64,000 bases of DNA from Gammaproteobacteria bacterium (lineage in GTDB: Bacteria > Pseudomonadota > Gammaproteobacteria > HK1), in NCBI GenBank assembly GCA_021773795.1, contig JAJFJT010000012.1, forward strand, positions 1-64,000. The letters are read 5' to 3'. Position 1 is the stretch's first letter; every line of letters begins with the position of its first letter. A program made the translations under genes and the position numbers. The notes under the pieces were generated by a model. The model saw only the letters and a list, made by a program, of their open reading frames with translations, had not been told where the DNA came from and made no database searches. Of the stretch, positions 1 to 4,053 are shown in pieces.

Positions 1-40
1 TGAACTCCGGTGAATGGTTCCTGCGTGGTCGTCTTGCCAT
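1..40 (-). CDS. IS3-family transposase OrfA, N-terminus only (partial)
   Basis: On the minus strand an ATG at 40 opens a frame reading MARRPRRNHSPEF before the window ends. A purine-rich ribosome site (GGAGGAG) lies just upstream, around 47-53. The Arg-rich start followed by HSPEF is the usual N-terminus of IS3/IS911-type OrfA proteins, which carry a helix-turn-helix for binding the element's ends. Only 13 residues are visible, so the family call rests on this motif and on the IS-end-like sequence upstream. It cannot be judged intact or broken. Confidence 0.55.
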   Translation of the reverse strand, partial: MARRPRRNHSPEF

Positions 41-138
41 CTGTTTTCTCCTCCTGATTGGGCATATCATGCCAAGTTCAGGCTGAGAATCCACTTATCG
101 GAGCTATCCAGAGCTGTTCAGATTTCTGGGGCCACCTC
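1..138 (-). mobile_element. Left end of an IS3-family insertion sequence running off the window
   Basis: Upstream of the minus-strand orfA start lies about 100 bp of non-coding sequence. Read on the minus strand, it opens near 138 with TGGCCCCAGAAATCTGAACA, which resembles the terminal repeats of IS2/IS3-group elements. The outer boundary is approximate because the other end is outside the window. Confidence 0.5.
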
Positions 139-205
139 TAAGATCCACAGCCGCTATCATCCGCACGAGCGGGATGGGGAAACGTGATCGGAACCAACGT
201 AATGA

Positions 206-871: not shown

Positions 872-1226
872 CGCCGATGCATTATGCCATCGGACCACCC
901 GTCACGGCGCTTGCAAGGTCTTCGGGAAGTCACGGTGATCCTCAGCCCGGCAAAGCTTCCGCGTCCTTGGCAATTGCTCCTGCATTGCCCTACTACCGTA
1001 CATCCCTGTAGGCAAGCGCCGTGCTGGTGTGCTGATGCGTGACATTGCCTCATTGACCGCTATGGTCACCGTGCCCCAGGCCCAGTGGAGCAGGCTCATC
1101 ACTTGCTTCCTTCCAGGTAAGTACCCTTGCCCAAGTGGCCAGCATGAGCATCAACGTCCAGTGTAAGTGGAGAGAAACGTAACCACATGCTACAGCCTTG
1201 GCTGACTAATCAACTCCCTATTGATG
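872..1226. other. Gene-free stretch between antitoxin and rnpB fragment
   Basis: About 355 bp with no convincing gene. A 66-codon minus-strand frame (902-1102) has no recognisable motif and no context supporting it. I see no RNA gene, IS end or strong terminator here. Its position between a toxin-antitoxin module and a duplicated rnpB fragment suggests residual mobile DNA. Confidence 0.5.
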
Positions 1227-1341
1227 CCTTGCATCTCCCATGGTCAGGTCTCAGACTCCGCACCGGAAGTCGGCCGGGCAGTCGCTTCATCGCTCGCGCG
1301 GTGGGGAGGAAAGTCCGGGCTCCGCAGGGCAGGGTGCCAGG
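1227..1341 (+). repeat. Duplicated 5' end of rnpB (promoter region plus first ~80 nt)
   Basis: This segment lines up without gaps with 2821-2935, at a constant offset of 1,594 bp. The last 79 bp (1263-1341) are identical to the start of the full RNase P RNA gene at 2857-2935. Upstream the match is partial but includes CCTTGCATC and CAGGTCTCAGACT in the same register, so a possible TTGCAT / CAGACT promoter pair with 17-bp spacing is shared. The copy stops abruptly at 1341, 7 bp before the left inverted repeat of the transposase remnant. It lacks the catalytic core and cannot encode a working RNase P RNA. It could still be transcribed as a short leader. Confidence 0.9.
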
Positions 1342-1348
1342 CGAGAAA

Positions 1349-1377
1349 AAGGGGACGGGGGGATTATTTATTGACCA
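1349..1377 (+). repeat. Left inverted repeat of the REP-associated transposase remnant
   Basis: This 29-bp arm matches the reverse complement of 1694-1722 at 27 of 29 positions and contains GGGGACGG and ATTATTTATTGACC. GGGGAC-rich, T-rich motifs of this kind commonly flank REP-associated tyrosine transposase genes. It begins 7 bp after the duplicated rnpB fragment ends. Confidence 0.8.
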
Positions 1378-1430
1378 TCCATCCATGCTAGCCTGAGCTA
1401 AGGATGATCATCAGCACAAGGAACTGTGCC

Positions 1431-1707
1431 ATGCCAAGAAGAGCAAGGAGCTATGTTGCGGATATTCCCTACCATATTGTCCAACGCGGCAATAATCGGG
1501 AGGCTTGTTTTTTCGAGGTGGACAATTACCAGTACTACCTGGAAGTGCTGTCGCAAGTACTGAAGCGATATCGTGTGTCCCTTCATGCCTACGTACTCAT
1601 GACTAACCACATCCATATGCTAATGACACCGGAAACCTCGTCCGGAATTTCAGATGTATATGGCGAGAGGACGGCCACGCAAAGACAATGAACTGGTCAA
1701 TAAATAA
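1431..1707 (+). pseudogene. REP-associated tyrosine transposase (Transposase_17/Y1), internally deleted and frameshifted
   Basis: The N-terminal ~75 residues (MPRRARSYVADIPYHIVQRG, later HAYVLMTNHIHMLMTPE) are those of RAYT/TnpA-REP proteins, including the HIH metal-binding motif of HUH nucleases. Full-length relatives are about 220-240 residues. After TPETSSGIS the frame runs into unrelated residues and stops at 1691. In another frame, 1663-1707 reads ARGRPRKDNELVNK and a stop, a typical RAYT C-terminal tail. So an internal deletion of well over 100 codons, with a junction near 1645-1662, fused head to tail out of frame. The catalytic tyrosine region is lost and the remnant cannot be active. 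Its 3' end overlaps the right inverted repeat. Confidence 0.85.
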
Positions 1708-1722
1708 TCCCTCCGTCCCCTC
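1694..1722 (-). repeat. Right inverted repeat of the REP-associated transposase remnant
   Basis: This is the reverse complement of 1349-1377 with two mismatches. It overlaps the last codons of the transposase tail, with the TAA at 1705-1707 inside the repeat. Together the two arms bound a remnant of about 375 bp. Confidence 0.8.
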
Positions 1723-1945: not shown

Positions 1946-2004
1946 TGGTGCTAATCGCTATTAAGTAATGATGGTATCGTGCCATGGAAGCCAAGGAGTG
2001 CATT

Positions 2005-2802
2005 ATGTCCCAACAATCTGTCAGAGTCCGGAATCCCCTCATCAATCCTCAGGCTAAATCAAGACAATGGTTCCGATCCCGGGTGTGTACGGCGATTCTT
2101 GCTCTTAGCTCTTTGTTCGTTGTGACAAGCGTATCGGCAGGGCCGATCTTTCATTTATTTGCTGGCAATAACGGCACGCCAGTGCATCCCAACGCAAACG
2201 ACCCCACCGATTTCAGAGCCTTCAGTTCTCTTTGGGGTATAACCACCACTGGTGCAGGCTTCATGGATGGCCGCATTACCTTTGTCGATGGCTTCGTGTT
2301 ACCCACTACGAATACCAGCCAAACCGTCACCTTCGACGAAACCGATATTGCCGAGTTCAGCTTCAGCCATTCACAATCAGCATTTGGCAGTACCCCTATC
2401 TTCCCGGTGTTTAGCTTTACCGCTCTGGCAAGCGATATTGTCTCTGCTTCGGGCGGTATTGGTCACGACGGTACGGATTTTTTCATTTTTAGTAATGGGG
2501 GCCCGAGTGGGATGCCGACCATCACGACCACCATCGGGGCAACTATAGGCGGTGTATTTGGTACGCCAGGGCTTACCGGTATCTGGGACATGGTTGGCGC
2601 AACGTCTCTGAATTTGGTTGGTACCGGGAGTGATACGGGTCGGACCGTATCACTTCAGGGTCCTGGTGGACGGTATGAACTCACTGGCTCGACCGCTAGC
2701 TCTGCTCCAGCCCCCGAACCTTCCAGCATATTGCTGTTAAGCACTGGCTTGGCGGGTTTAGCTGTCAGGCGGCGGATGAAGAAAAGGAAGCAGACCGGGT
2801 AA
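2005..2802 (+). CDS. PEP-CTERM sorting-domain exported protein
   Basis: The start at ATG 2005 is preceded by AAGGAG (1993-1998), which favours it over ATG 1984; the product is 265 residues. It has an N-terminal signal peptide (RSRVCTAILALSSLFVVTSVSA), then a Ser/Thr/Gly-rich body of beta character without a named domain. It ends in the tripartite PEP-CTERM signal: APEPSS, a hydrophobic helix (ILLLSTGLAGLAV) and a basic tail (RRRMKKRK). Such proteins are exported, cut and anchored or released by exosortase, and often take part in biofilm or floc formation. No exosortase lies in this window. It is a single gene between a transposase remnant and rnpB, under a sigma-54 promoter. Confidence 0.88.
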   Translation: MSQQSVRVRNPLINPQAKSRQWFRSRVCTAILALSSLFVVTSVSAGPIFHLFAGNNGTPVHPNANDPTDFRAFSSLWGITTTGAGFMDGRITFVDGFVLPTTNTSQTVTFDETDIAEFSFSHSQSAFGSTPIFPVFSFTALASDIVSASGGIGHDGTDFFIFSNGGPSGMPTITTTIGATIGGVFGTPGLTGIWDMVGATSLNLVGTGSDTGRTVSLQGPGGRYELTGSTASSAPAPEPSSILLLSTGLAGLAVRRRMKKRKQTG

Positions 2803-2856
2803 TCATTGCTCTACGCATTTCCTTGCATCCACCAGGTGCAGGTCTCAGACTTGGCG

Positions 2857-3230
2857 CCGGAAGTCGGCCGGGCAGTCGCTTCATCGCTCGCGCGGTGGGG
2901 AGGAAAGTCCGGGCTCCGCAGGGCAGGGTGCCAGGTAACGCCTGGGGGATGTGAATCCACGGAAAGTGCCACAGAAAATATACCGCCATTGGCCCTTGGG
3001 CTGATGGTAAGGGTGAAATGGTGTGGTAAGAGCGCACCGCGCCGTTGGCAACAATGGCGGCAGGGTAAACCCCACCCGGAGCAAGACCAAATAGGGGAGC
3101 ACATCGCGCTTTGGCGCGAAAAGGCGCGGCCCGCGCTGGCTCCCGGGTAGGTTGCTTGAGGCGTGCGGCGACGCACGTCCCAGATGAATGACTGTCCCAG
3201 ACAGAACCCGGCTTACAGGCCGACTTCCAC
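2857..3230 (+). ncRNA. rnpB: RNase P RNA, bacterial type A
   Basis: This is the catalytic RNA of RNase P, which matures tRNA 5' ends. The P1 helix is formed by GGAAGTCGGCC (2859-2869) and GGCCGACTTCC (3218-3228). Conserved core blocks are present in order: GAGGAAAGTCCGGGCTCC, AGGGTGCCAGGTAACGCC, GAGCAAGACCAAATAGGG, CCCGGGTAGG with TGCTTGAG, and GATGAATGACTGTCC with ACAGAACCCGGCTTA. The length of about 374 nt fits type A. Ends are assigned from P1 and may be off by a few bases. The first 79 nt are duplicated at 1263-1341. Confidence 0.97.
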
Positions 3231-3247
3231 TTGTTTTTCTCTATTTC

Positions 3248-3280: not shown

Positions 3281-3315
3281 CCTCCTTGGCACCAGCCAAT
3301 TCCGGCAATACTTAA

Positions 3316-3373
3316 GGAGGCTCTGATCTATTCGTGGACTCGTATCTTGCGCCCAAAATAAATCAGAGCCTCC
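3316..3373 (+). mobile_element. Miniature inverted-repeat element, copy 1 (58 bp)
   Basis: The element starts GGAGGCTCTGAT and ends ATCAGAGCCTCC, and is bounded by TTAA on both sides (3312-3315 and 3374-3377), a likely target duplication. Its first 43 bp match the reverse complement of the right end of the element at 60356-60514 with five mismatches. Copy 1 looks like that element with about 100 bp removed from the middle. It has no coding capacity, so it is a non-autonomous remnant of an unidentified insertion sequence. Confidence 0.8.
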
Positions 3374-3503
3374 TTAATGCAATTCATTAAGTATCTATTT
3401 CAACCCAATGATCCTCCTGAACGTTCCCCCCACAAAACCACATTAAACTTGCTGTTATTACGCTAAGTCATTGTCTCTAAAGAAAGATTTGTGATCTCCC
3501 GGC

Positions 3504-3571: not shown

Positions 3572-3594
3572 GCGGTTAATCAATGGGGATAGTG

Positions 3595-4053
3595 GTGTTC
3601 CGAGGCGAAAGCACACTCAACATGGATAACAAGGGGCGGCTTGCCGTTCCTCGGCGTTACCGTGCCCAGCTTGGGGAGATGTGTGGCGGGGCCCTGGTGG
3701 TCACTATCAGCCTCCTCAATCGTTGTCTGGTGGTTTATCCCTTTAGCCATTGGCAAGACATCGAACAGGAATTGAAGAATCTTCCTGCCCTGGATCGCAA
3801 GGCCCAGGCCATTCGCCATCTGCTTATCGGTCACGCCACCGAGTGCGAACTCGATGGTCAGGGACGCATCCTTGTTAGCCAGTCTCTGCGCGAGTTTGCG
3901 AGCCTGGAAAAGCGCGTGAAGATGATTGGACAGGCTGGGAAATTCGAGCTTTGGAACGAACAAGCCTGGGCTGATCAGCGCGATGAGTTACTGGCCGATG
4001 TGGGGGCATTACTTGCTGACCCCTCGGACGAATTACGTGCACTAGTACTTTAG
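3595..4053 (+). CDS. mraZ: Transcriptional regulator MraZ
   Basis: MraZ is a ring-forming DNA-binding protein that controls the dcw operon. It has two SpoVT-AbrB domains, the first with TLNMDNKGRLAVPRRYR and the second with CELDGQGRILVSQSLRE. Starting at GTG 3595 gives MFRGES at the N-terminus and 152 residues, matching the family. GGGGA at 3584-3588 would be its ribosome site. A start at ATG 3583, four residues longer, is also open. It is the first gene of the dcw cluster, with its probable binding boxes at 3542-3571 for autoregulation. Confidence 0.95.
   Translation: MFRGESTLNMDNKGRLAVPRRYRAQLGEMCGGALVVTISLLNRCLVVYPFSHWQDIEQELKNLPALDRKAQAIRHLLIGHATECELDGQGRILVSQSLREFASLEKRVKMIGQAGKFELWNEQAWADQRDELLADVGALLADPSDELRALVL

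Follow-up and report, generated by a model that had tools for sequence, protein, structure and literature searches.

Why does a gammaproteobacterial genome with an intact RNase P RNA gene (rnpB) carry, upstream of it, a second and truncated copy of that gene's 5' end? An earlier sequence-only reading of this DNA took the shorter copy for a duplicate of the resident 5' end and suggested integration or recombination at rnpB. Here, we followed up that reading by comparing the two copies with each other and with relatives at the genus, family and class level. The window that we analyzed covers the first 64,000 nucleotides of contig C4 (275,649 bases), in a genome of 2.56 Mb in 36 contigs, 99.3% complete. 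The account that we favor, with moderate confidence, is that the truncated copy is a non-functional scar left by recombination between diverged alleles, with DNA from a related lineage.

The rnpB 5' end occurs twice

A repeat search of the window matched 1227–1341 (copy 1) to 2821–2935 (copy 2) at 107 of 115 positions (93%). All eight mismatches (copy 1 positions 1236, 1237, 1241, 1243, 1244, 1258, 1259 and 1262) lie inside the first 36 positions and are followed by 79 identical nucleotides, so aligning the two copies, as had been proposed, confirmed that copy 1 ends in the exact start of the real rnpB. This pair is the sole repeated 40-mer stretch in the window, and a search of the genome returned these two copies and no third; the repeat is therefore not a product of chance. 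The Rfam model RF00010 found one full rnpB in the window (349.6 bits, above the gathering score), and its match to copy 1 (1266–1470), at 23.5 bits, fell short of that score, which is 100, with rnpB making up only the first ~77 nt of the matched stretch. The promoter candidate TTGCAT-N17-CAGACT, previously described as common to the two copies, is present in both and also in both sister genomes (G001 and G002). Copy 1 had been said to stop 7 bp before the inverted repeat of a transposase remnant; the two are indeed adjacent, but the spacing needs correction, as the repeat arm begins 8 bases away. The features of the locus are collected in Table 1.

Table 1. Features around the two copies of the rnpB 5' end, in window coordinates.
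Feature	Position	Strand	Remarks
IS3-family insertion sequence end	1..143	-	Family assigned by inspection of sequence; 99% identical repeat in C33; contig starts inside it
Decayed rsmI 3' end	1164..1203	+	35/45 aligned columns identical to G002 rsmI tail
rnpB promoter region, copy 1	1227..1262	+	TTGCAT 1229–1234, CAGACT 1252–1257
Truncated rnpB 5' end, copy 1	1263..1341	+	79 nt identical to 2857–2935
RAYT (REP-associated tyrosine transposase, IS200-like) remnant, internally deleted	1350..1721	+	28-nt inverted repeats, 1350–1377 and 1694–1721
PEP-CTERM protein gene, orphan	1984..2802	+	Homologue absent from the 16 other family genomes searched
Promoter region of intact rnpB, copy 2	2821..2856	+	Allele differs from copy 1
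Intact rnpB, bacterial class A RNase P RNA	2860..3231	+	Rfam RF00010
mraZ, conserved downstream neighbor	3583..4053	+	After rnpB in 13 of 14 loci

The fragment spans the rsmI-rnpB junction

Homology between copy 1 and relatives continues upstream of the repeat, an extension that the earlier reading had missed. In a search with 1–2830, the match to G002 begins at 1164, not at 1227, and reaches into the 3' end of rsmI. The stretch TAAGTGGaGAGAAACGTAACC...AGCCTTgGCT aligned locally to the rsmI tail of G002 better than any of 20000 shuffles in one run and any of 5000 in another, and carries a 5-nt deletion relative to G002 that produces a frameshift. The same stretch had no significant match to the tail of this genome's own rsmI (934 of 5000 shuffles were as good) or, by local alignment, to that of G001. 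The C-terminus of RsmI is short and variable, so the likeness to G002 is a limited clue. Because the match reaches the 3' end of rsmI, copy 1 is a fragment of the whole rsmI-rnpB junction, and the stranded piece, as delimited by these alignments, consists of an rsmI tail, the promoter and the first ~77 nt of rnpB, about 178 bp in all.

Across the genus and family, rsmI lies directly before rnpB in 13 of 14 loci, mraZ follows rnpB in 13 of 14, and each family genome with a match holds a single rnpB 5' end. Searching relatives for an empty site, a check put forward earlier, recovered just this single rnpB in an uninterrupted rsmI-rnpB-mraZ order, and no family genome was found to carry the same 79-bp fragment at a constant place. 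In the present genome that order is broken. Its own rsmI is intact and sits on contig C20, about 220 bases short of the contig end, with unrelated DNA after it. The interval between rsmI and rnpB has thus been broken open and now contains at least 2.8 kb of foreign DNA, partly unassembled; part of this region falls in the gap that separates C20 from C4. We also considered rsmI as an integration target, which is not favored because its own and displaced tails share no identical core.

Two further elements were seen near these genes. The DNA after rsmI at the contig end (L039, G000:C20, 1–220) has weak repeats (73–76%) in three places of C24, and an inverted-repeat element between rnpB and mraZ (3312–3377, TTAAGGAGGCTCTGATCTATT) has a 91% match elsewhere in G002 (L007, 5892–5938).

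The copies enclose foreign DNA and lie among mobile-element debris

From left to right, the window starts with the IS3 end, a ParE/HTH gene pair, a repeat, the rsmI tail and copy 1, followed by the RAYT remnant, the PEP-CTERM gene, the intact rnpB and mraZ. The placement of a PEP-CTERM gene and a transposase remnant between the two copies was thus correctly read from the start. The insert between the copies (1342–2820) has a G+C content of 48–49%, compared with 58–60% for the core genes of the window, and no nucleotide match in the sister genomes. Within it, the RAYT open reading frame (1404–1691) is matched by Pfam Y1_Tnp over positions 2–68 of 121, not over the full length, and scores 35 bits against NCBIfam REP_Tyr_transpos, for which the cut-off is 80; the element is therefore an internally deleted remnant. 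A PEP-CTERM gene next to rnpB, as a donor might carry, was found nowhere in the family, and the class gave only weak C-terminal matches. Scanning the open reading frames of 1–2830 revealed no integrase domain between or beside the copies. In silico excision of one repeat unit (1594 bp), which places 2936 directly after 1341, produced a sequence that aligned collinearly with G002 across 567 columns, the rsmI tail among them.

Mobile-element debris flanks copy 1 on both sides, in the form of the IS3 end, the repeat at 948–1010 and the RAYT remnant. That repeat is short and dispersed, with several copies in all three genus genomes. The gene pair to its left (174–871) encodes a ParE-like toxin and an HTH (HipB-like) antitoxin.

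The two promoters are diverged alleles

This genome and its sister genomes are only about 80% identical in the genes nearby, and we used them to gauge how far apart the two copies are. Over the 36 promoter positions, copy 1 differs from copy 2 at 8, from G002 at 8 and from G001 at 9; copy 2 differs from G001 at 6 and from G002 at 13, and the two sister genomes differ from each other at 13. The promoters of the two copies (8 of 36) are thus as far apart as those of different species (6–13 of 36). Over 78 positions of the RNA body, copies 1 and 2 do not differ, and every other pair among the copies and sister genomes differs at 2. Near-complete identity of the rnpB 5' body would be expected even across species, and because this stretch differs at only 2 of 78 positions between species, the identical 79 bp point only weakly to a recent duplication. 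By Poisson, the chance of observing 0 of 78 when 2 of 78 are seen between species is about 13%, and the source may therefore have been of the same species.

Eight mismatches in 36 positions next to none in 79 is an uneven distribution (Fisher p = 5e-5), and a duplicate decaying without selection should not produce it. The simplest account is that the two copies represent alleles that have diverged, the resident one and that of a related lineage.

A probable scar of recombination between alleles

The fragment, its flanks, the broken gene order, the AT-rich insert and the divergence of the alleles are all directly visible at this locus. Since the two promoters are alleles diverged at the species level, we infer an exchange with a congener, and not plain copying of the resident gene. 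In such an exchange, a piece of chromosome bearing the rsmI-rnpB junction would have been stranded between foreign segments. The events may have run in either of two ways: the insert displaced the resident junction and gave the working gene a foreign promoter, or copy 1 is itself the imported junction piece. A one-sided homologous (RecA) exchange inside rnpB, combined with illegitimate joining near +77, next to the RAYT end, would produce this layout. Against this scenario, among the genomes searched none that could be the donor carried the same promoter allele or a PEP-CTERM-rnpB arrangement. Of the two origins suggested earlier, recombination at rnpB is upheld by the broken synteny, the foreign insert and the collinearity after excision, and integration loses ground with the lack of an integrase.

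The layout resembles homology-facilitated illegitimate recombination (PMC3240628), in which one homologous and one illegitimate joint leave a partial gene beside foreign DNA; unlike in that case, the mechanism proposed here is read from the layout only. It also resembles the displaced gene fragments of Islander/TIGER-type genomic islands (PMC4383910, PMC12424338), where the limits of an insertion are given by an intact gene together with its fragment, although those involve a tRNA or tmRNA gene split by a tyrosine-integrase element and here the fragment is an rnpB 5' end without an integrase. Our literature search turned up nothing relevant on rnpB pseudogenes or on rnpB as an integration site; other reports may exist.

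Stray rnpB pieces in other genomes

In a survey of 370 genomes of the class, multiple rnpB matches were seen in eight besides this one. Four (G354, G092, G070 and G249) contain low-scoring pieces only and were left out of the comparison of endpoints, and one (G327) has a 121-bp rnpB overlap at contig ends. The extra pieces that we inspected end elsewhere than copy 1. G193 has a second rnpB consisting of a promoter and a ~258-nt 5' fragment, 93% identical to the intact gene and located beside a ubiX-like gene (L074, G193:C105, 1556–1846). In G137, the intact gene is followed closely downstream by a degenerate tandem copy of its 3' part (L068, G137:C22, 1179–1435). In the unrelated genome G329, an integrase-like DUF6538 gene, cut by the contig end, adjoins the 3' end of the intact rnpB (L087, G329:C6, 3–774), and a separate contig holds a 107-bp identical duplicate of that 3' end (L086, G329:C7, 24–130), an arrangement that resembles site-specific integration at this end of rnpB. 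The low counts and differing layouts in this survey indicate that stray rnpB pieces are rare and of mixed origin. Matches to rnpB on phages and plasmids were set aside as not informative, being only ~68–78% identical, mostly extending over most of the gene and in many cases falling in chromosome-size records.

Alternative origins and a possible function

Alternatively, the genome could simply have duplicated its own rnpB 5' end, with one copy decaying. The 79 identical bases and the single-copy state of relatives are compatible with this, as is the G in CTC(G/A)CGCGG, which is common to both copies and absent from G001 and G002. However, a neutral relic should decay evenly, and given the uneven decay, plain duplication needs gene conversion to have kept the RNA part identical; moreover, the rsmI tail ahead of copy 1 is unlike the genome's own. 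We consider this origin unlikely, and the earlier description of copy 1 as a duplicate of the genome's own rnpB 5' end is not supported in view of the promoter divergence, the differing rsmI tail and the slow evolution of the RNA body.

A somewhat less likely origin is site-specific integration at the rnpB 5' end by an element whose own promoter and 5' end restored the gene and whose integrase was later lost. This arrangement is known from dusA islands (PMC4482086), which bring a replacement promoter and 5' end for the gene they enter and displace the original 5' end. The present locus is topologically equivalent: an AT-rich insert sits between imperfect direct repeats of the gene's 5' end, one of them displaced (either may be the original), and the working gene would have a new 5' end and promoter. 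The case of G329 further suggests that rnpB can be a target. But dusA islands combine an integrase with 21-bp semiconserved att sites and occur in more than 200 bacteria, whereas here one genome carries a 1.5-kb insert, made up of a transposase remnant and one orphan gene, and 1–2830 has no integrase. In addition, the G329 case concerns the opposite end of rnpB, and the same 5' junction was seen in none of the 17 family genomes or the inspected cases from ~370 class genomes. The stronger proposal that the rnpB 5' end serves as an attachment site, with a gene-restoring element placing the host RNase P RNA under an element-borne promoter, seems to us quite improbable.

An assembly artefact, to which we assign about the same low likelihood as integration, would mean that the exact 79-bp repeat was wrongly resolved, through a loop or a mixture of strains, and that the real chromosome reads rsmI, copy 1 promoter, rnpB, mraZ or lacks the fragment. 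In its favor, this is a draft assembly of 36 contigs, one of which ends at an IS copy, both sister genomes are MAGs, and two promoter alleles beside an exact repeat could stem from two strains. Nevertheless, the junction at 1341/1342 into the RAYT end is not repeated, so some molecule must carry it; the reported contamination is 0.24%, and rsmI likewise lies apart from rnpB, on C20.

Finally, we infer that the fragment has no function. A short RNA made from the promoter of copy 1 and competing with RNase P folding, as suggested earlier, or sequestering the RNase P protein, is very improbable: the TTGCAT-N17-CAGACT motif of copy 1 is intact, but the fragment folds no better than shuffled sequences (z −0.94 and −0.01), lacks a nearby downstream terminator-like site on the + strand and is not conserved in any relative. 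A promoter scan gave nothing at copy 1, although the same scan also missed the promoter of the intact rnpB.

Implications

Exact identity within a slowly evolving RNA gene can mimic a fresh duplication, and it is the flanks that point here to an exchange of diverged alleles. Elsewhere in the class, the integrase-like gene at the rnpB 3' end of G329 suggests that rnpB can be an integration target. The present case is an ordinary one, save that it shows a piece of an essential RNA gene left behind; an essential ribozyme gene has had its neighborhood changed, and perhaps its promoter too.
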